A stretch of DNA of 9,253 nt from contig JAUWKC010000037.1 in assembly GCA_030607345.1 (NCBI GenBank), forward strand, positions 1 through 9,253, written 5' to 3'. Shown here in pieces: positions 1 to 9,253 of the stretch (position 1 is its first letter; the number at the start of each line of letters is the position of its first letter). Made by a program: the position numbers and the translations under genes. The notes under the pieces were generated by a model. That model worked only from the letters and a program-made list of their open reading frames with translations, was not told where the DNA came from and did not search any database. This stretch comes from Planctomycetota bacterium (GTDB lineage Bacteria > Planctomycetota > Phycisphaerae > Sedimentisphaerales > SG8-4).

Positions 1-257
1 CGGTTGGCCCAGACTATCGCGTCGGCATTGGAACGGCCGTTGCCGGCAAAATCGCCGCCGCAGCAGTGCCACAGATCATCCATCGGCGTGTCGTGCTCGC
101 CGCAGCCTTTCTTATCCGGCACATCCATTCTCAAAAACACCTTGATGTAATTTTTCAGGTCGCGCCTGTTTCTCGGCCTGGTCCGCCGCAGCGCCGCATA
201 AACTGCTTGTGCCTCTTCGGCACCACGTTCAGATTTTGGAATACTACGTTCAATCAT
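1..257 (-). CDS. N-terminal fragment of a probable phage-terminase-like ATPase (runs off the window)
   Basis: The reading frame opens at ATG 257-255 and stays open to the window edge, giving 85 full codons plus two bases. It begins MIERSIPKSERGAEEAQ and has a basic helical stretch (ALRRTRPRNRRDLKNYIKVF, residues 22-41), a HDTPMDDLWHCCGGDF segment (55-70) and ends in GRSNADAIVWAN (74-85). The start is supported by an AGGAG Shine-Dalgarno 7 nt upstream. From memory, planctomycete terminase-large-subunit-like proteins have a similar PMDYLWH... NADAVVWANR segment directly before a GGGKT Walker A loop. The loop itself would lie just beyond base 1, so the ATPase assignment cannot be confirmed here. 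If correct, the protein would be the ATP-driven DNA-packaging motor of a phage, or a domesticated relative. It is unrelated to the upstream paralogs, and a 117-nt gap (258-374) separates it from the nearest remnant, so it may be a different unit. It is clearly coding; the product name is moderate to low confidence. Confidence 0.7.
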   Translation of the reverse strand, partial: MIERSIPKSERGAEEAQAVYAALRRTRPRNRRDLKNYIKVFLRMDVPDKKGCGEHDTPMDDLWHCCGGDFAGNGRSNADAIVWAN

Positions 258-374: not shown

Positions 375-554
375 CTACTTGAAAAGATGATTCAGCATTT
401 CATCCGAAACAGTCATCGTGTAAGCGCTGTTGGCGTCCTGCGGGCTCGTCATTCAATGTCGTGGGGCTTGGCGAATTTGTGCATCGGGCTCAAAGGGACT
501 CTGAGCGAACACCGTGGCAACCAAGGCAAACAAGACATAAAGAGCGTCTCTCAT
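375..554 (-). pseudogene. Miniature remnant of the secreted paralog family: signal peptide plus C-terminal tail
   Basis: ATG at 554-552 overlaps the stop of the upstream gene as ATGA, so translation would be coupled. The first 33 codons encode MRDALYVLFALVATVFAQ, a good signal peptide with a likely cleavage after the AQ region, then SPFEPDAQIRQAPRH, followed by TGA at 455-453. In the same frame, immediately after the TGA, comes ATG and 25 codons ending at TAG 377-375: MTSPQDANSAYTMTVSDEML then NHLFK. That second piece is the family C-terminal tail (compare GPEDANNVYTLQLSDEML then QKLFN in the gene at the right edge). The roughly 700 residues that full-length relatives have between these two ends are missing. 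The simplest reading is an internally deleted pseudogene. A live short secreted peptide with re-initiation at TGAATG is possible but unproven. It is too short to be picked up by ordinary ORF length cut-offs. Confidence 0.75.
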
Positions 555-3185
555 AGGCTACTTCTTAGTTCTTCTGGGCTTGCTTCTAACCATTGCAGAA
601 TTTCGTCTGGGACCTCGAGAGTAAACTCTGTGCCATCGTCCTCGTAGCCACGCAACTGAAATGGCTTGACCAGCAGTGACGACAGGGAGTATTCATACTG
701 CGGAACGTAGAATTTGCCCTTTGTGTGCGGAGGAACAATGAATTTGATTCTGCCATCTTCCGGTGTTCTCAGAGCACATGGAAATTGCAGTCCCGTGAAC
801 CAAATACCGACCGGTACGTCGGCCACGGGTTTTCCGGCTGAGTTGACCACCTTCGCAAAGACCGCAATGGTCCGGTCGAACCGGCATTGGCCCAGTTCAA
901 GGGTCTCACCCTGATCGAGGAATATATCTTGCGCGGCAACTGTCGGATTGACCCATTTGCCCTTGAGGTTTGGGTACGCCCTCAATTCCACACTGAGGTT
1001 CGCACCGGCAGGGACGCAGATGGTCTCGCGGACATTCTTAGAAAGCGATATCGGATACGTAAAATGACCGCCTTCCAATTGCAGCTCTGTCAAGGTCCTT
1101 ATACGGTTTGGGTCTGATTTCTCTTCTTCGAGCGAACAGGCATCCGACGGCCAAACGCCATCGCCCACAAGCTCCAGCGCCTCTTGTTCCTCTAAAACAT
1201 CACCTTCCAAATGCTTATCCAAATCCTCGGTTGACCAGGCGGAGTCATAGTCGTGACCGACCACGATAGGTATCCCAAAAAACGACACCTTTTCCTGGAT
1301 TACAAAGTCGTATAGCACATACAGAAAAACAGCAAAGAAGTTGTACGCCGGTTGCTGGGGCTCGGACATATCGAACGCCAAGTCGGCAATCTCCACTTTT
1401 TGGTCGACGAAAGCATTGATCGGCACCTCGTACGGCCCTTGGTCCGCGTCATGACCAGGACTGTAAGCCAACTTGTAAAACCGGAGGTCTTTGGCCCTGC
1501 CCACCCACCCCGGACAGTTGTTTGTGTCCACTACCCATGTGGCGAAGACCTGGCCGTCGTCCTCGATGATCGCCCTGATAGTAACCTTCGCTGCCGGGAA
1601 TAACGGCAGGACCGGCAACTTAATCCGTCCATTTTTATCAGGCTGGAGCGATTTGGTACTTTGTCGGATCTCCAGGTAGTTTTCTTCCAAAGCCATAAAT
1701 TTCGGGATCTTATGACCAGCGGCAGAGTGCACTTCGAATCGCCCTTCCGTATCGGTGTGCATCACCTCGTCGAATAGATACCTTCTAAGAAGGGGCTCGA
1801 GCCGCTCATCATAGTCCGAGATGTTGCCCTTAACGCTCCGCATCTGGTCCCATTGACTCGGGGTAATTCCTGCCGCGCTGTTAGTTAATCCCGAAAAAGA
1901 GCTGCGCGGTGTCAGTATGAACGCGCCGGACATGGGATTTCCGGTGACGCCATCGACGACCTGTCCGCAATAGACCAATTTTTTCTTGAGACTAAACACA
2001 AGCTCTTCGGCGCTATCTTCCGTTACTCTCAAAAGCTCGAATTCGTACCGCTTTAGGTGCCATTGTGCACTTGCTTTACATATCCCCAGCGGAAGAAACC
2101 GGCCCCCTTTCAGGTCCTTGTATTCGTACGTCACCACCGGTTTGTTAGGGCAGTTGATTTCGATTGATATGTCTTTCAGCCTCTTTGTCGCCGTAATCGG
2201 CCCGTTCGCATCCTCAAATACAAATGTGTGGAAGTATCCATATTCAGTCATACTGACAACACTGCAGTTTGGCTCCGGAGCAACTGTACCAATAAACGGC
2301 ATCAGGCCAAGCTCTCTTGGAGCGTCAATCCGCAACTTGAACTTTGTCTCGGCCGAGATTAACGTGCCTGGATAGATTATGGGATAAACTGTGAACCGCC
2401 CGTCCTGGTCGGTTACGACCTGGCCCAAGGAGCGTTGTGTGTCGCCGTTGGGCAATTCTACTGCTGTGCAGCTTACAAAAGCTCCGCTTATAGGCGTGTT
2501 CGTATCGTCCACTATGGCCGCGCAGAACGATCGCTCATAAGCTGGTGCTTCTGTCGGTACCCAGGGCACCCGCACTGCGGGTATGCGTTCCCGAGTTGGT
2601 GAATATAGCTTCAAATCGACGGGGTCTATTCGGACGGCGCCATAATTATCCGGATGGTAAACCTCAAGCAGAGGCCGGTTTACGTTGCCGGAGAATGAGG
2701 GTATTTCAAAGCGGCCTGCTTCGTCTACTTCGGTCTGTCTTATTAATATCCGTGATCGTCCCCCTAACCTCCCGCAATAGACGAACAGCTTGACTGTGGC
2801 CCCTACAAGAGGTTTGTTCAGGACATCTCTGAATGGCACCTTGTAGGGCCACGAGCCGCTGCTGAGAAGTTTGATGGGCTGGCCGCTCTCATACCGCTGA
2901 GCCACCACGCGAGGCTCCATAAAACTATGAACGACCGGGTCCTGCTGGTCTTCTTGGGACAACGGCGACAATTGCGGAATCACCGATCTCGAAGGAATCA
3001 AGGCGAATCGAAAAACGCTGCAGGCGAACGGATACCACATCAAACACGGCGGGGTCCACCTCAGGACTATCGTATATTCGGACGAAGGCTTCCCGGCCGT
3101 CGAGGGCTGCCGGCCCTACGGCGGCCAAGCCGGCGGAGACCATCCACCATCCTAACAGGGTCAACAACAAAGCTGTGACCTTCAT
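551..3185 (-). CDS. Secreted protein with carboxypeptidase-regulatory-like domains, interrupted by a one-base frameshift
   Basis: Two overlapping frames form one gene. The first, from ATG 3185, encodes a signal peptide (MKVTALLLTLLGWWMVSAGL) and ALDGREAFVRIYDSPEVDP..., ending AIVAVV. The second carries the rest, starting QEDQQDPVVHSFM. Removing one base from the GGG run at 2956-2958 joins them into 877 aa and gives a gap-free alignment with the neighbour at 3209-5575 (VAVF-SLDQKDRLLEQLM). The open frame of the second part extends to an ATG at 3043, but that start lacks a signal peptide and is not native. In corrected numbering: regulatory-like domain 1 about 114-165, domain 2 about 218-266 (VTDQDGRF 257-264), FVFEDANGPI 321-330, domain 3 about 403-488 (VVDGVTGNPMSGAF 409-422), LFPAA 528-532, an unusual insert about 575-715, VPAG 724-727, domain 4 about 772-828 (NSAGKPV 781-787). 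The C-terminus (VPDEILQWL..., 858 onward) lacks the DAN motif and runs about 15 residues longer than in relatives. Whether the frameshift is real decay or an assembly or read error cannot be decided here. Exported; role unknown. Confidence 0.85.
1040..1462 (-). other. Private ~130-residue insert within the frameshifted paralog
   Basis: Between the NNCPGW motif (residues 555-560, corrected numbering) and the VPAG motif (724-727) this paralog has about 162 residues, against about 31 in the 788-aa neighbour. The extra sequence is compositionally distinct. It contains a hydrophobic aromatic stretch YNFFAVFLYVLYDFVI (614-629) and then an acidic region with EDLDKHLEGDVLEEQEALEL (653-672) and LEEEK (685-689). 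It has no counterpart in the other three long paralogs. The hydrophobic stretch is near transmembrane length but contains no charge-free 20-residue run, so I would not call it a membrane segment. Boundaries are approximate, based on eye alignment. Confidence 0.65.
2956..2958 (-). other. Frameshift site (one extra C on the coding strand)
   Basis: The coding strand reads GTT GTC CCA AGA in the upstream frame, while homology continues in the frame that reads CAA GAA GAC. Deleting one C from the CCC run gives GTT GTC CAA GAA GAC and restores collinearity with the paralog without a gap. A one-base difference in a short homopolymer is typical of a sequencing or assembly indel or a recent null mutation. 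There is no obvious slippery site plus stimulator suggesting programmed +1 frameshifting. Confidence 0.85.
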
Positions 3186-3192
3186 AATTTCA

Positions 3193-3198
3193 TCCTTT
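3193..3198 (-). promoter_or_regulatory. Shine-Dalgarno for the frameshifted paralog
   Basis: The minus strand reads AAAGGA at 3198-3193, 7 nt before the ATG at 3185-3183. It matters because it supports the start at 3185, with the signal peptide, rather than the internal ATG at 3043 that an automatic gene caller would choose for the longer frame. The whole intergenic spacer to the previous stop is 23 nt. Confidence 0.8.
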
Positions 3199-3208
3199 CG
3201 AACCGAGT

Positions 3209-5575
3209 CTATTTGAAGAGGGCTCCGAGAATTTCATCCGAAAGCTTCATTGTGTACACATTGTTGGCATCCGCCGTGCCGGATATTTGATATGGTATCG
3301 CCTCGTGAAGGACCGGCTCAGCCGACTCTTCATCCGGTTTATGCTTGACGACGAACTGGCCTTTTGAATCACGGGCTAAATCAAATGTGGCCACACCGTT
3401 TTCGTCGCTGTTATAAGTGACTTCTCCATACTGGCTGGAAGCGGTCACCGGCACCCCTTCCACCGGCTGACCTGCCGAATCGGCAACATCGACATAAATC
3501 CTGAGGGACCGCTTAATTTCCACCCGGCCTAAATCAAGTACCTGGCCCCGGCGAAGCTTGATGTTTTCTGCAATAGTCACGGCAGACCAATGCCTCTTCC
3601 AACGGCGTCCCGACGGAATGCGCCACGGGCGTAATTGTACCTCCAGATTCAGCCCAGCGGGGACGTATACACTCTGGGGTCCCATAAGGGTATCCACAGA
3701 ATAATCGGCACGTACCCCCTGCATATAATCTTGCCTGCAGGCGGCAAGCAGCTTCTCGCACCAGGGCGGATTGTTATTCTTATATATAACCCATTTGGTC
3801 CATAAACCCGGACATCCATGTTCATCACTGTTTTTGGCCCGGGGCTCAACAACAATCCTGGCTGCGGGGAACAACCTAGCCAGAGGTAGTCGAAAATCTC
3901 CCTTGCCATCCGGCTCGAACAGTTCCTCCTTAATTATGACGCTGAGATAGTTCTGCTCAAATATCACAACCCCCCCCATATGCCTTTGGCCCGGCACCTT
4001 CAGTTCATATCTGCCGTTCTTATTCGTTCGAACCAGCCTGTGGTCGGAGTAGTTGGCCGAGTAACGGATATCGACCGGCTCCAGCACTTGCCGGTAATGC
4101 TTTTCTGCGAATGAAACGCTCCCCGGCAATTGATGAAGTGCACCCCACTGCCTTTCTGTAAGTTCCGAAAGATTCCTTCCACTTGATACGCCGATTGCAT
4201 CCACCACAAAGGCGCCTTCGAGCAATTCCCCGGTAACGCCGTCAACAACCAACCCATAATAGCGTTTTGTTTTTGCGGGCATTTTGAAAACCAACCGCTC
4301 AGGACTGTCAGTTGTTACTTTCAGCGGCGAAAATTCAAAGCTGCGCCTTGTCAGGTTAAGCAACTTTGCTCTGTAAGTGCCGCATGGGAATCTACCGCCG
4401 TTTTTCCATTGCTCATAGCCCAGCCGCCGGCAGCTATTATCGGAACGCTCAATGCCGACAAGAATTCGTCTGAGCCGGCTTTGGTCCACAATCGGACCGG
4501 CTTGATCTGTAAAGACAAATCTGTGAAATCGACCGGCTTTTTCAAGCTTTATAATGGTCTCACGACCGTTGGGTATTCTGCCCCTGAATGGTTCAAAACC
4601 GAGGCTTCCGGGCGGCTCAATCTTCACAGAGTATTCACTTTTGGGTGGAATTAAAGTCCCTATATGCTCGTAGTCTGGTCTTGTCGGCAGGTACATCCGA
4701 AATCGACCATCGTGGTCTGTAAGAACACCGCAGCTCTGACAACGAACGTCACCGACCCATAGCCCACTAAGGGGATACAAACCCTCAGACTGAACCAACA
4801 CCCCGCCGACCGGATTGTTGTCCTCGTCAACTACCTTGCCCCAGATAGAGCGCTGGTAAGCTTCACTTTCAGCAGGCACAAATGGTACAAAAACGACAGT
4901 AGGCTTTTCCGGTTCGGCTTTATCCGGGTAAGAACGAACCACAGCAGAGTATTTGTAATCTGCCTGCGAGACCTCAAAGCAAAATCTACCAGAATCAAGA
5001 CACGATCTGTTTTCTTCGGCACCAAAACACGCTCGGGCACTACCGGGGTAAAACGGCAGCTTCAATTGCCCCAGCTTGTTGACCCTTCGATTGCCGATAC
5101 AAATCTGCCGCGTTGTCTTTGCCCTTTGGGTCCACAGAAATATCTTCACCGAAGCATTCGGCAAAGGGTTGCCCAAGGCGTCTGCGAAAACCCAGTCGTA
5201 GATTTTCGGCCTCGTTGTCTCATATCTTGGCAGTGTAAACTCTAATCCTTTCTTGTATGCCCAGCAGTAGAGCCGGCTGCCCATCAATTGTTCTAACAGT
5301 CGGTCTTTCTGGTCCAGGCTGAACACGGCCACCACTGCCGTCTCGGCAACGTCTTGAAAGTCGAATCTAATTTTCCTTGCCTTTACCTCGACCGCCGTCA
5401 ACCTGTATGCGGCCGGCTCGAGCTGCCAATTTTCATACACCCGAACGATTACCTCTCTGCCTTCAAGGGGGGGCTCGTCCGGCTCATCGGCCACAAGCAA
5501 CCGCGGCGCAAAGAAACCTGCGAGCAACAGCACGCATAACAATGTAAGGCTGCATTTCGTGATTTGCTTGTTCAT
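3209..5575 (-). CDS. Secreted multi-domain protein with four carboxypeptidase-regulatory-like domains (788 aa)
   Basis: The best-preserved member of the array. Residues 1-29 are a Sec signal peptide (KCSLTLLCVLLLAGFFAPRL, likely cleaved near LLVA/DE). A strand-rich N-terminal module spans 38-105 (EGREVIVRVYENWQLEP at 38-54). Then come regulatory-like domain 1 (126-175, FADALGNPLPNASVKIFL), domain 2 (244-297, GKVVDEDNNPVGGVLV and VLTDHDGRFRM), a HRFVFTDQAGPI segment (351-362), domain 3 (440-530, VVDGVTGELLEGAFV, ERQWGAL, TNKNGRYELKVPG), LFPAARI (568-574), VPAGLNLEVQL (638-648), domain 4 (692-745, VDVADSAGQPVEGVPV, DENGVATFDL) and the tail DANNVYTMKLSDEILGALFK (769-788). The repeated pattern (V-D-x-x-G-x-P-V-x-G-A-x-V ... 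T-D-x-x-G-R-F) is the transthyretin-like fold of the peptidase M14 regulatory / Cna-B-like group. No protease zinc site or other catalytic motif is visible. Its Shine-Dalgarno is weak (AGAAAG-like). It begins 13 nt after the remnant at 5589-5968 and ends 23 nt before the next gene, so co-transcription is likely. Exported, probably structural or adhesive; actual role unknown. Confidence 0.92.
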   Translation of the reverse strand: MNKQITKCSLTLLCVLLLAGFFAPRLLVADEPDEPPLEGREVIVRVYENWQLEPAAYRLTAVEVKARKIRFDFQDVAETAVVAVFSLDQKDRLLEQLMGSRLYCWAYKKGLEFTLPRYETTRPKIYDWVFADALGNPLPNASVKIFLWTQRAKTTRQICIGNRRVNKLGQLKLPFYPGSARACFGAEENRSCLDSGRFCFEVSQADYKYSAVVRSYPDKAEPEKPTVVFVPFVPAESEAYQRSIWGKVVDEDNNPVGGVLVQSEGLYPLSGLWVGDVRCQSCGVLTDHDGRFRMYLPTRPDYEHIGTLIPPKSEYSVKIEPPGSLGFEPFRGRIPNGRETIIKLEKAGRFHRFVFTDQAGPIVDQSRLRRILVGIERSDNSCRRLGYEQWKNGGRFPCGTYRAKLLNLTRRSFEFSPLKVTTDSPERLVFKMPAKTKRYYGLVVDGVTGELLEGAFVVDAIGVSSGRNLSELTERQWGALHQLPGSVSFAEKHYRQVLEPVDIRYSANYSDHRLVRTNKNGRYELKVPGQRHMGGVVIFEQNYLSVIIKEELFEPDGKGDFRLPLARLFPAARIVVEPRAKNSDEHGCPGLWTKWVIYKNNNPPWCEKLLAACRQDYMQGVRADYSVDTLMGPQSVYVPAGLNLEVQLRPWRIPSGRRWKRHWSAVTIAENIKLRRGQVLDLGRVEIKRSLRIYVDVADSAGQPVEGVPVTASSQYGEVTYNSDENGVATFDLARDSKGQFVVKHKPDEESAEPVLHEAIPYQISGTADANNVYTMKLSDEILGALFK

Positions 5576-5588
5576 ATTCGGTTTCTTT

Positions 5589-5968
5589 CTATTTTAGAAT
5601 TTGATTGAGCAGTCTATCCGGCACGCGGATGGTGTAGCTGCTGTTGGCATCTTCGACTCCGGCCACTTCGTATGGTATGCTTCGCTTAACTGTTAAATCG
5701 AAATACTACCATTTCGTCAGCATAAATTAAAGAAAAAATTGACATTTGGGCGGGCTTAATATAAGTTTTTATCGGCATATTTCTCTTTGTCGTTTTTTGT
5801 AAGGTCTTTGTTTTGAAAAGGTTAAGACAAATAACGGTGGTCGGACTCAGCCGCACCGCGATAAAGCCGAGCCACCAGGTATCTGCCGTCGAGTGCCGTC
5901 GTATCATTCTGGTATGCGTTTGCGGCTGCCGTGATAAGAAACGAAAGTAAGACAAGTTTGCTTTTCAT
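5589..5968 (-). pseudogene. Decayed paralog: N- and C-terminal ends kept, middle lost
   Basis: ATG 5968 opens a 48-codon frame ending at TAA 5824-5822. It encodes a signal peptide (MKSKLVLLSFLITAAANA) followed by TALDGRYLVARLYRG, which matches the family start ALDGREAFVRIYDS of the gene at 551-3185. At the other end, 5589 to about 5688, a different frame encodes KRSIPYEVAGVEDANSSYTI then RVPDRLLNQILK and TAG, matching EAIPYQISGTADANNVYTMK of the neighbouring 788-aa gene. Between the two ends lies AT-rich sequence with stops in the relevant frames; about 650-700 codons of the ancestral gene are gone. It starts 25 nt after the preceding stop and ends 13 nt before the next start, so it occupies exactly one slot of the tandem array. 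A weak AAGG ribosome site lies 9 nt upstream. A continuous 89-codon frame crosses the same region (5686-5955) but shows no resemblance to the family and is a by-product of the decay. Confidence 0.85.
5690..5830. other. AT-rich filler inside the decayed paralog
   Basis: This stretch is clearly richer in A and T than the rest of the window, with several A or T runs, and has no resemblance to the paralog family. It separates the surviving ends of the 5589-5968 remnant. It contains an imperfect plus-strand sigma-70-like pair (TTGACA 5739-5744, 15-nt spacer, TATAAG 5760-5765), a small palindrome TTAAC-T-GTTAA (5686-5696) and a hairpin CGAAAT-6nt-ATTTCG (5699-5716). No flanking target duplication or terminal inverted repeat long enough to call a mobile element was found. 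It may be inserted DNA, or simply the decayed middle drifting toward AT. Confidence 0.55.
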
Positions 5969-5993
5969 TGTTCAATACCTTTTTCAGTAGTCC

Positions 5994-8264
5994 TCAATCT
6001 TCATTAAAAAGCCGCCGGAGCATTTCGTCCGAAAGCTGCAACGTGTAAACAGTGTTGGCATCCTGGATTCCGTTCGTCTGGTAATCTACCGATTCGTTAT
6101 AGAAATGTTCGGTCTCATCCTGATGTGTGATGATGAAGCTGTCTTGGTAATAAGGGGGGACATAGAAGCCGGCCAGACCATCCTTATCTGTGATTTTAAC
6201 GCCGCTGTAATGGTCGCAGTGAACACCAACACCTACGACCGGATTGGCCGCAGAATCGGTTACCTGCACAAAAACTTCGATTCGCTGCGTCAAATTGATA
6301 ATTCCGAGGTCGAGACTCTTGCCTTTCTCGAGGGAGAACATCTCTGTGTGAACCGGCGCAGCACAGTATTCACCCCTACCCCGAAATTCAAGGCGAAACC
6401 TAAGGTCTGCCGGCACATAAATAGTGTACGGCAGGTCCAAGCGAACCGGCCGACGCAAATCTACATCTACAGTCCTCGCATAGGAGCCAAGGGAGCTGTC
6501 ACAAGGGTCCCTGCCGCACTTTCGCCAGTAGACCCAGAAAGAGTTGTTTTCTTCCTGATGCTCGAAAGCTAATTGAAAGTGAACCTTCGCTGCAGGAAAC
6601 AGTTTTGATATTGGAAGTTCCACCACTTCATTGGGGCTGTTTTTAAGATTGACATCTGTGAAGTGCATAATCGGAACATAATCCTGCTTGATTACCCAAA
6701 AATGATACGAGAGGCCGTGTGTTACCGTTATGCTGAAGCGTCCCCGGGTGTCGGTCACAAGGACCTTCTTTATCTTGGACCATCGCTTGCGCAAAGGTTC
6801 AAGGACCGGGTCGTTCGGCTCGATGTCTTCTCTGAGTTGAGCGAGCCTCTGCCACTGCTGCTCTGCCAGGGACGCTACGGTTGCCTCCGCTAAAAGCCCG
6901 CCTTTGGAACAAATCACCAGTGCCCCTTCGACGGGTTTGCCGGTAAGGCCATAAACAACGCGGCCCTGATAGGTTTTATATGGCTTGACAGGCTTGGTCT
7001 GCCGCCGTCTGAAAACAACTTGGCTGGGACTTTCCTCAGTGACAGTTACATGTTCAAAAATCATACTTCCCATTCTTGCTTTGTATCCGCCGGGAGGAAA
7101 CATCCCGCCATCTTTGATATCGTCATATTCGAAATACAACGAGCGCTGTAGGCCCGAAGGACGTATCTCCAGTTGCAGTCTTTCGAGTATCTTCTTGTCC
7201 GTAATCGGTGCGTTCTCATCCTGAAAAGCGAAGGTCCTGAAATACAATTTCGGCCGCTTCAGTCGTATTATGCTTTCTTTGCCGATAGGAATTAGCCGAG
7301 ACTGAGGCGGAATACTAAGTTCCTCCAGTGTTACTATGAGCACATCATACTTGGAGTTAGGGCCTAGCCGTATCGAGCCGCCCTTTAGTTTTTCCATCGG
7401 CATACACATCCGGAATCTGCCTTGTGCATCCGTAACGACAAATCCGCAGTGTCTCGACCACCTTAGCTCGCCGCCTCCCGGAGTATGAACCTCCCGGCAA
7501 GAAATCACAACCTGCGGCATCGGCTTGTTTGCATCGTCCAGGACACGGCCCCATATCGACTGTTCTCTTGTCGCAGGGTTAACCGGACTCATCGGAACGT
7601 TAACATCATGACCGTAGTACAGAGTATTGAGAATCAATACTCTGCCATAATCCGGATGCGAGAAAATAAAGGACGGCTTACTCTTATGCAGTTTTTCTTT
7701 TTCAACAAAAAGCAGCCCGTATTTATCAAGACTGTACTGCCACACTAGTGCGTCAAGTCCGGGCACTCGAGCATTGTAAGCGAATATCAGTTTCCTGGTG
7801 TCAAAAACTCGTGCCCATCCGTTCGATAACGGTTTGCCGTAAACATCACAAAAGCAAAACACGGAGTACCGGGACAAGAGCTTTTGAAGGTAGCTCCTGC
7901 GAAGTGCGCCCCATTGGCTGTAACTGTCGAGCAACCTATCGAGCTTTATAACCTGAGCGGCAAGTATTTCCTGCAGGACGATATCGGACCGAATCTTTTC
8001 TGTTAAGAGCTTTGAACACAGCAGCAAGTCAAGAGCAACCACAGAGTCCTCCTCAAGGAACTTGCCTGTAAGATAATCGGTTATGGGGCCAATATTAGGG
8101 TCGTCGGCTTTGAGTTCAAGCATATAACTCGAAACCTGCCGATATGTGGTTGTTTTCCTGGCCTGGTCAACCGGCGTCTGCCAGAGAGCACAGTTCTGCA
8201 GAACTGCCGGCACCTGGCTGTTACTCCCAAGCCACAGCAGCGAAAAAATTATGGCAACTTGCAT
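5994..8264 (-). CDS. Secreted carboxypeptidase-regulatory-like domain protein with a helical N-terminus (756 aa)
   Basis: The start at 8264 is fixed by GGAGG 7 nt upstream. The first ~23 residues (MQVAIIFSLLWLGSNSQVPA) look like an export signal, though without the usual basic residues, so cleavage is less certain. Residues about 24-130 are helix-like and unlike the other paralogs: the GREVIVRVYE strand module is absent, replaced by EEDSVVALDLLLCSKLLTEK (71-90) and similar segments. From there the family order resumes: domain 1 (136-190, CFCDVYGKPLSNGWARVFD), domain 2 (237-289, GRVLDDANKPMP, VVTDAQGRFRM), FRTFAFQDENAPI (342-354), domain 3 (433-515, GRVVYGLTGKPVEGALVI, EQQWQRL, TDTRGRF), LFPAAK (555-560), YVPADLRF (616-623), domain 4 (663-712, VQVTDSAANPVVGVGV, TDKDGLAGFYVPPYY) and the tail DANTVYTLQLSDEMLRRLFN (735-754) plus ED. 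It is closest to the truncated gene at the right edge (both have VPPYYQ and YQTNG before the tail). It sits 23 nt downstream of that gene and 25 nt upstream of a decayed copy. No catalytic motif is seen; function unknown. Confidence 0.92.
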   Translation of the reverse strand: MQVAIIFSLLWLGSNSQVPAVLQNCALWQTPVDQARKTTTYRQVSSYMLELKADDPNIGPITDYLTGKFLEEDSVVALDLLLCSKLLTEKIRSDIVLQEILAAQVIKLDRLLDSYSQWGALRRSYLQKLLSRYSVFCFCDVYGKPLSNGWARVFDTRKLIFAYNARVPGLDALVWQYSLDKYGLLFVEKEKLHKSKPSFIFSHPDYGRVLILNTLYYGHDVNVPMSPVNPATREQSIWGRVLDDANKPMPQVVISCREVHTPGGGELRWSRHCGFVVTDAQGRFRMCMPMEKLKGGSIRLGPNSKYDVLIVTLEELSIPPQSRLIPIGKESIIRLKRPKLYFRTFAFQDENAPITDKKILERLQLEIRPSGLQRSLYFEYDDIKDGGMFPPGGYKARMGSMIFEHVTVTEESPSQVVFRRRQTKPVKPYKTYQGRVVYGLTGKPVEGALVICSKGGLLAEATVASLAEQQWQRLAQLREDIEPNDPVLEPLRKRWSKIKKVLVTDTRGRFSITVTHGLSYHFWVIKQDYVPIMHFTDVNLKNSPNEVVELPISKLFPAAKVHFQLAFEHQEENNSFWVYWRKCGRDPCDSSLGSYARTVDVDLRRPVRLDLPYTIYVPADLRFRLEFRGRGEYCAAPVHTEMFSLEKGKSLDLGIINLTQRIEVFVQVTDSAANPVVGVGVHCDHYSGVKITDKDGLAGFYVPPYYQDSFIITHQDETEHFYNESVDYQTNGIQDANTVYTLQLSDEMLRRLFNED

Positions 8265-8271
8265 ATATGAA

Positions 8272-8276
8272 CCTCC
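8272..8276 (-). promoter_or_regulatory. Shine-Dalgarno for the 756-aa paralog
   Basis: The minus strand reads GGAGG at 8276-8272, 7 nt before ATG 8264-8262, inside the 23-nt spacer after the previous stop. It is the strongest ribosome site within the array and confirms the start despite the atypical signal peptide. Confidence 0.8.
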
Positions 8277-8287
8277 AGTCGAGATGC

Positions 8288-9253
8288 TCAGTTAAAAAGT
8301 TTTTGCAGCATCTCGTCCGAAAGCTGCAGGGTGTAAACATTGTTTGCGTCCTCTGGACCGTTGGTCTGATAGGCTATGGACTCGGTTACTCTGTCTCGAG
8401 CGGGTCCGGGCGGACCGACGGCGAATTGGCCCTGGTAATACGGCGGCACGTGAAACTCCGCGAAGCCTTGCTCGTCCGTAACATAGGTCTGGCCCAAGGA
8501 CCACCCGAGATGGTCAATGTGTGTTACCCCAACACCTTTAAGGCCTTTGCCGGCGGAATCGACAACCTGCACGAATACGGGCATTTCCTGACGTATTTCT
8601 ACCTTACCAAGGTCGATAACCTGACCCTGTGAAGCACTTACGGTTTCCGTCAAAATCGGACACCACCAGGGGTATCTGCGGTTGGTGCGGTCGGCAACCA
8701 GAAGGCGAATCTTAAATCTCAAGCCGGCAGGGACCTGAAGGTTGTTAACGACGTTTGGTTCCAGATTCTCCCTGGTGATAAGCTTGTAAGGTCCATAGCT
8801 GCGAAGCCCGTCGAACCAGCCGGGCTGTTGCTCATCGGCGTACGTCAACCTCGCACGGACATGGCACTGCTTCTTGGCAAAGGCCGGTTCAAGCAGCACC
8901 GTTGCCGCAGGATAAAGCCGCATATCACCCAAGTCCACACTGTTATCAGTGTCGGGCTTATCTCTATCCTGTGACAGGGTGTGCTTGACGGCCACATAAT
9001 CTTGCTGAAAGGCCACAACTTCGTAGCTCTGGTTTTCTCGCAGAGAAACGCCAAATTGAAATATCCCCTGACTGTCAGCTCGCAGAAGCTCGCGAAAGCG
9101 GATGATTTCCCCCAGTGGCACTACGTACGGGTCGTCGCCGACGGTCGCCGCTCCGAGCCTCTCGAGCATCTCCCATTGCTCCGGCGCCAAGTTCGATAGG
9201 TCCTTGCGAAGCCAGGCTCCAACGGCGACGAAAGCACCGGCCATAGGTCGGCC
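8288..9253 (-). CDS. C-terminal part of a secreted carboxypeptidase-regulatory-like paralog (5' end beyond the window)
   Basis: The frame is open from the window edge to TGA 8290-8288, 321 residues. An ATG at 9244 is internal: the preceding codons give GRP, so GRPMAGAFVAVGA aligns with TGKPVEGALVICS of the next gene, in the middle of domain 3. Visible parts: end of domain 3 (APEQWEMLERL 23-33, RADSQGIFQFGV 58-69), LYPAATV (113-119), QQPGWFDGL (142-150), VPAGLRFKIRLL (174-185), domain 4 (226-274, VQVVDSAGKGLKGVGV, VTDEQGFAEFHVPPYY) and the tail DANNVYTLQLSDEMLQKLFN (302-321). By comparison with the paralogs, about 430 residues including the signal peptide should lie to the right of the window. 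It is the first unit of the array visible here and is followed after 23 nt by its closest relative, so the two are probably a recent tandem duplication on one transcript. Confidence 0.9.
   Translation of the reverse strand, partial: GRPMAGAFVAVGAWLRKDLSNLAPEQWEMLERLGAATVGDDPYVVPLGEIIRFRELLRADSQGIFQFGVSLRENQSYEVVAFQQDYVAVKHTLSQDRDKPDTDNSVDLGDMRLYPAATVLLEPAFAKKQCHVRARLTYADEQQPGWFDGLRSYGPYKLITRENLEPNVVNNLQVPAGLRFKIRLLVADRTNRRYPWWCPILTETVSASQGQVIDLGKVEIRQEMPVFVQVVDSAGKGLKGVGVTHIDHLGWSLGQTYVTDEQGFAEFHVPPYYQGQFAVGPPGPARDRVTESIAYQTNGPEDANNVYTLQLSDEMLQKLFN

Follow-up and report, generated by a model that had tools for sequence, protein, structure and literature searches.

The window analysed here, a 9,253-nt stretch of contig JAUWKC010000037.1 from a member of the Planctomycetota, carries a tandem array of six units of one protein family, next to what its matches identify as the start of a gene for a terminase large subunit (TerL). 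Established in this work are the family, its predicted fold class, its site beside TerL, the operon and cargo-filled gap that accompany TerL in relatives, and mosaic alleles at the protein level; binding or sensing of extracellular glycans is our best guess as to function. The explanation that we favour, with evenly balanced confidence, is that the array arose by an old expansion, since then partly decayed, of a lineage-restricted, exported, non-enzymatic family of beta-domain strings, which would bind glycans and which lies upstream of TerL, where relatives have the cargo interval of a phage-derived terminase operon.

The units and the terminase start form a single series on the minus strand, in the order U1, U2, R3, U4, U5, R6 and then the terminase start at 257-3. 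As an earlier, sequence-only reading had described, they stand head to tail: counted on the sequence, the spacers are 23 nt (U1-U2), 25 nt (U2-R3), 13 nt (R3-U4) and 23 nt (U4-U5), and U5 and R6 are joined by an ATGA overlap. In the list of open reading frames (ORFs), U1 (8288..9253, minus strand) is the C-terminal 321 amino acids (aa) of a unit left open at the window edge, with a tail ending in VYTLQLSDEMLQKLFN; 301 of these 321 residues are identical to the C-terminal part of P0013, an 853-aa protein on another contig. U2 (5994..8264, minus strand; ORF list) and U4 (3209..5575, minus strand) are complete, at 756 and 788 aa, and both have signal-peptide-like starts, a call that for all units was made by eye. 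The N-terminal region of U2 is unlike those of U4 and U5, and a protein from a different contig, P0012, is 95% identical to U2; U4 has about seven small beta modules.

The remaining three units are disrupted. In U5 (551..3185, minus strand), defined from the ORF list and from BLASTP with the two frames searched apart and not joined, an 86-aa ORF (3185-2925) holds the signal peptide and a GREAFVRIY start, and the body is an 830-aa ORF (3043-551) whose start is out of register; the mismatch points to a frameshift near 2945-3010, just past the start module, which may be either a mutation or an assembly error. The translations of R3 (5589..5968, minus strand) give a remnant with a 48-aa start, an AT-rich filler (30.8% G+C over 5835-5680) and a family tail in another frame (about 5690-5589); the start (5968-5822) comprises the signal peptide followed by LDGRYLVARLY, and resembles that of P0013. 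R6 (375..554, minus strand), as translated, consists of a 33-aa signal-peptide-like ORF, one in-frame stop and a 25-aa family tail, PQDANSAYTMTVSDEMLNHLFK, similar to the one in P0001, a protein 92% identical to U4. Both remnants have thus kept a signal-peptide-like start and a family tail and have lost the body of about 700 residues. The array described earlier is confirmed, with the correction that U5 is divided between two frames. On its downstream side the array ends inside the window, where R6 is followed by the terminase start, a different gene.

That these units belong to one family, as had been proposed, was borne out by all-against-all BLASTP of U1, U2, U4 and both U5 frames, in which the long frames share 24-33% identity over the BLAST segments, with E values down to 2e-63. 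U2 and U4 are 28.6% identical over 671 aa (E 2e-63), U4 and U5 30.6% over 571 aa (E 3e-61) and 31.4% over 153 aa, and U2 and U5 29.3% over 458 aa and 29.6% over 152 aa. The partial U1 aligns with U2 (33.2% over 328 aa), U4 (30.5% over 347 aa) and U5 (31.3% over 166 aa and 24.1% over 162 aa), and the short start frame of U5 with U4 (32-35% over 48-75 aa). Judged by these alignments, the likeness between units is far above chance. The whole-length family has no name in the Pfam, PHROGs and NCBIfam searches, in agreement with the earlier impression of an unnamed architecture; what these libraries recognise is limited to small domains (carboxypeptidase-regulatory-like, Big_1 and, in U4, MG4), one weak NCBIfam match (TIGR04134, to U2) lies under its cut-off, and one relative is called 'carboxypeptidase-like regulatory domain-containing protein' at NCBI. 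The gathering cut-off of PF13620 (CarboxypepD_reg), 32.3 bits, was passed by U4 (40.5 bits) and not by U2 (30.1), the U5 main frame (24.3) or the partial U1 (16.5). No enzymatic domain turned up in the library searches of the units, consistent with the suggestion that they are exported and probably non-enzymatic, of which the first half leans on the signal-peptide-like starts.

The predicted fold, taken from a second model (mean predicted local distance difference test, pLDDT, 83.7) used in place of a first (71.9), strings together small beta domains of the transthyretin/CnaB-like type. The transthyretin-like domains of U4 lie at about residues 124-232, 240-348, 436-560 and 690-784. The earlier count of four regulatory-like domains is thus about right for these, but we count about seven beta modules in the model, and only one of the four long units passes the PF13620 cut-off. 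The model can be aligned to solved transthyretin/CnaB-like beta-sandwiches, which supports the predicted class; by sequence, none of the solved chains matches the family profile at E<=0.1. Structural matches to hydroxyisourate hydrolase and carboxypeptidase probably reflect the shared fold, leaving an enzymatic function unsupported, and matches to viral baseplate and tail proteins are to beta-domain strings, with template modelling (TM) scores of 0.05-0.16. A simple internal duplication was dropped, as HHalign of module against module gave no sequence-level repeat beyond a faint likeness of modules 1, 2 and 6.

Two known kinds of protein invite comparison. With the PF13620/transthyretin-like proteins of Planctomycetota the units share, by profile or predicted fold, the superfamily of several domains; PF13620 names a fold, however, and the array units add a 750-850-aa architecture with a GREVVVRVY start module, an LFPAA-VPAG module and an SDEMLxxLFK tail. 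The CnaB pilins and adhesins of Gram-positive bacteria (SpaA, SpaD, Cpa, TIE) can be aligned structurally at about 7-14% identity, but their sortase-anchored forms are defined by a C-terminal LPXTG and hydrophobic segment, and LPXTG occurs in none of the 35 family tails listed (33 rows and two remnant tails).

Searches with single units found 11 relatives of U4, one at 92% and ten at 43-50% identity, and five of U2, one at 95% and four at 28-34%. The profile search against genomes that the sequence-only reading had called for matched the family in 24 of the 161 genomes of one Phycisphaerae order (that of G001) at E<=1e-3, and in 20 of 161 at E<=1e-20; below, genomes with the family are counted from these 20. 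In a phylum-wide sample the family was found in one of 392 genomes, namely G001, a Phycisphaerae draft genome; this search scored at most two candidates per genome, so that its sensitivity is limited and absence elsewhere in the phylum is not established. No relative of the family was found in viral contigs.

We next consider the age of the array. In a tree of 33 rows, which left out fragments L039_5/6, L051_2/3, L052_1 and L053_0, the weak L054_5, and P0012-P0016 (found after the tree was made), U4 groups with P0001 and P0002 (support 100/98) in a clade that otherwise consists of proteins encoded on different contigs; U1, U2 and U5 are long, unplaced branches. Among relatives, locus L001 has three tandem units, of which the first pairs with G060's only unit (support 100/100) while the last, P0007, falls in the U4 clade, so that at least those family lineages predate the split of the two genomes. 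On this tree and the low BLASTP identities, the array consists of old paralogues of one family and not of recent copies, matching the old duplications with divergence envisaged earlier. Recent tandem duplication was rejected by the tree, though U1, U2 and U5 are unplaced there. Of the two subgroups that had been drawn within the array, the right-hand one stands in that U1 and U2 share VPPYYQ and YQTNG; the GREVIVRVY-type start does not define a left-hand one, since the U1-type protein P0013 has it and U2 lacks it.

Alleles of the units are mosaic. The U1-type proteins P0013 and P0014 are identical at 430 of 438 residues before one block, 79 of 158 inside it and 102 of 105 after it, so that a 158-aa segment at 50% identity lies between flanks at 98% and 97%; none of 2000 shuffles clustered the differences equally. 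The block maps to residues 517-683 of U4, comprising the LFPAA-VPAG module and some preceding strands. Between P0001 and U4, 62 aligned residues differ, in patches, with 168 residues unchanged, and the C-terminal residues of P0001 resemble the tail of R6. In P0013 itself, an R3-like start and an additional tail module, 26-40% identical to other tails, precede a complete unit; the arrangement looks like the fusion of a shortened unit with the one next to it. Because these comparisons were made on protein sequences from metagenomes, chimeric assembly is a possible source of mosaicism; with that proviso, two of the four allele comparisons show genuine diversification, as segmental replacement in P0013/P0014 and as patches in P0001/U4.

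Such alleles bear on the suggestion that the array undergoes diversification resembling antigenic variation; its products might then be surface antigens that phages or predators target. The signal-peptide-like starts of the tandem paralogues, the sharp segmental replacement between two alleles, remnants that resemble recombination debris and a phage-derived neighbouring gene would all suit this idea. However, the array members are old, a tandem array of whole units recurs only in L001 among the relatives' loci printed, and the tails lack LPXTG, the only anchor looked for. In the strict sense antigenic variation also calls for a silent-cassette/expression-site arrangement, and none is seen in the window, nor are donor copies. 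Of the observations made, only the mosaic alleles support the suggestion, and we consider surface antigens an improbable explanation.

It is similarly improbable that the array is a passenger without present function, decaying in an interval that tolerates insertions. Two remnants and a frameshifted unit among six, and cargo that varies from genome to genome, would be expected of passive cargo. On the other hand, U2 and U4 each keep an unbroken frame of about 750 aa and have intact relatives, 95% identical to U2 and 92% to U4; their G+C content also differs by codon position as in coding DNA.

The site of the array is defined by the gene at its downstream end (3..257, minus strand; 85 codons, cut by the window edge), which the sequence-only reading did not include. 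Of 64 TerL proteins from relatives' genomes, 63 match this fragment at E<=1e-3, with 49-64% identity among the top 12 listed, and a full-length TerL relative matches PF17289 and phrog_2; by homology, the gene is the start of a terminase large subunit. The window is cut on TerL's other side, giving no view of the genes past it. In relatives, the operon runs helix-turn-helix (HTH), ABC ATPase, GNAT-like, ParB, TerS, [cargo], TerL. Assignments rest on library matches in L040 (ABC ATPase phrog_293, ParB PF02195, TerS phrog_2538, TerL PF17289/phrog_2, together with a sulfatase and an FAD-oxidoreductase) and on BLAST to those references elsewhere. GNAT-like is our label for an operon protein of about 250 aa that has no Pfam match and matches phrog_886, named an ABC transporter subunit; the labels RpiB, Fic, aspS and ATPase/TOPRIM-looking are likewise our presumptions, made by inspection and not from a family search. 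In the G060 terminase operon, a protein at L040:2867-4201 (+) combines an AAA part with a dCMP deaminase domain.

Of the order's 161 genomes, 126 have TerL, most of them with a single match, in contrast to the HK97 capsid family (PF05065; 26 of 161) and the portal PF04860 (14 of 161). Among the matches listed, neither PF05065 nor PF04860, the only capsid and portal families searched, falls on a contig listed with TerL, and inspection by eye of the 20 printed TerL loci revealed no portal or capsid gene. Of the 126 genomes, 63 TerL regions were inspected, mainly the stronger matches; these come from 67 scanned loci, among which L001 and L044 end before TerL, the L048 stretch stops short, and in L152 the gene caller missed TerL despite a listed match. 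TerS lies upstream of TerL in 32 of the 63, and as the caller was a crude longest-ORF one, TerS not being found elsewhere is no proof of its absence. Upstream of the 32 TerS-TerL pairs are ParB (25), the GNAT-like protein (23), the ABC ATPase (20) and HTH (17). Between TerS and TerL lie 2-10,021 bp, with a median of 3.4 kb and more than 1 kb in 23 of 32; this gap contains a sulfatase and FAD-oxidoreductase in 11, RpiB in nine and the array family in two (L040, L046). Four further intervals have the family and one end on the contig (TerS in L001 and L044, TerL in L036 and L051), making six relatives with the family inside the interval. In L045 and L048 a sulfatase adjoins the family gene, with neither TerS nor TerL in the fetched stretch; on the L048 contig TerL lies about 14 kb further on.

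Other features of these loci were also recorded. The presumed aspS occurs in seven of the 63 TerL loci, and a conserved 248-aa protein in 14 (for example L092:14955-15701 (+)), downstream of TerL in those printed; together they hint at a fixed, inherited locus. Loci L085-L104 and L117-L156 have the operon without recognised capsid genes beside it and with variable TerS-TerL cargo. Some of that cargo looks defence-like: a presumed ATPase/TOPRIM pair, or a protein 26% identical to a Fic-like reference (L094:4975-6872 (-), L104:6601-7602 (-)). Two genes upstream of TerL, L101:7757-11443 (+) encodes a 1228-aa protein with N-terminal zf-HC2 and CarboxypepD_reg domains, unmatched by the array profile at E<=1e-5.

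Across 62 TerL relatives, the columns WANRxGGKT, LRCDE, DFGF, CDPsG and DHpIDALRYFF are conserved at >=80%, most at >=95%. We take these to be the Walker A/B and nuclease motifs, and on that assignment the relatives' TerL proteins appear to have the residues of an active terminase; the window fragment stops before Walker A is complete. No TerL relative was found in viral contigs, and in named phages TerL matches 185 records, all below 60% identity (20 listed at 22-35%); the GNAT-like protein has no match there. To judge by titles and abstract openings, none of the few papers found in an open-access library on terminases in Phycisphaerae or Planctomycetes describes such an operon. In the Pseudomonas phage phiK7B1 (Nickievirus), too, one run contains two ParB-like genes, an ABC ATPase with 39% identity to its L040 counterpart, and a large terminase. 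Portal and capsid genes come after TerL in the phage, whereas none was recognised by eye in the 20 printed loci, several of which carry cargo between TerS and TerL. Like phage and phage-inducible chromosomal island (PICI) terminases engaged in lateral transduction, the operon sits in a bacterial chromosome and has defence or cargo genes close to its terminase genes, but the HK97 capsid family is confined to the 26 genomes noted above. An excerpt of PMC12829572 describes packaging from a pac site into neighbouring DNA, and reports that TerS and TerL of E. coli prophages are consistently one gene apart, unlike the gaps above 1 kb that predominate in the relatives.

A more adventurous possibility is that the operon is a domesticated cargo bay. 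Genes entering the stretch that follows TerS, the point at which a pac-type terminase would normally begin to cut, might then be preferentially cut, packaged in borrowed capsids or recombined, the interval gaining and reshuffling secreted-enzyme and surface-protein cargo, the window array and its mosaic alleles included. We think this unlikely, and a terminase acting on its own cargo is equally a speculation with little probability.

Under the glycan-binding explanation that we favour, each unit would be secreted via its signal peptide and, once out of the cytoplasm, would serve as an elongated scaffold to which extracellular glycans, perhaps sulfated ones, bind, working alongside the sulfatase and FAD-oxidoreductase that flank the family gene in several relatives. 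Allelic variation would arise by segmental recombination, clearest in the LFPAA-VPAG module; internal deletions would leave only start and tail, as in R3 and R6; and the phage-derived terminase operon would probably have been kept vertically. Several observations weigh against this explanation. The family gene was not found in the TerS-TerL interval in 14 of the 20 strong-match genomes: it and TerL are megabases apart on one contig in G032 and G033, about 57 kb apart in G155 and about 14 kb in G005, and in the remainder the two genes sit on separate contigs or TerL did not turn up. The window shows only the TerL start, not TerS, ParB or sulfatase. Two allele comparisons show little patterning: in P0012/U2 the differences cluster only weakly (the longest run is attained in 911 of 2000 shuffles and the variance in 8), and in U1/P0013 they do not cluster. 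The enrichment estimated for the family at this site is rough as well, since the genomes are related to one another, their size was taken as 4 Mb and the contigs are short.

The other adverse observations point to sensing rather than scaffolding. P0002, which belongs to the clade of U4 and is 50% identical to it, has an anti-sigma zinc finger (zf-HC2, residues 5-38) and a by-eye transmembrane stretch before the body, and L037 and L042, of another clade, join HEAT repeats to the body directly beside ECF sigma genes. The body could then be a ligand-sensing ectodomain, of which anti-sigma-fused or ECF-linked copies signal inward and secreted copies serve as soluble receptors or decoys. This is possible, though we judge it considerably less probable than a scaffold: the array units begin with signal-peptide-like sequences, the window contains no sigma gene, zf-HC2 matched none of U1 (partial), U2, U4 or the U5 frames and, among the family proteins scanned, only P0002, and the context is known for three proteins only, with the neighbours of P0002 outside view. 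According to an excerpt of PMC11131199, Sedimentisphaerales have the highest numbers of glycoside hydrolase and polysaccharide lyase enzymes among planctomycetotal orders; this would fit scaffold and sensing alike, and the order searched here is not established as Sedimentisphaerales.

With these results, an uncharacterised, probably exported family can be assigned to a fold class, to a lineage and to a place in the genome. The array is unusual, yet it is kin to modular exported beta proteins, a known kind; the surprising part is its site beside a terminase whose operon in relatives has no recognised capsid genes. This phage-derived terminase is present in most genomes of one bacterial order, and its TerS-TerL interval gathers cargo. 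If the terminase still works, it would give Planctomycetota a so far unrecognised means of transferring or rearranging genes for carbohydrate use.

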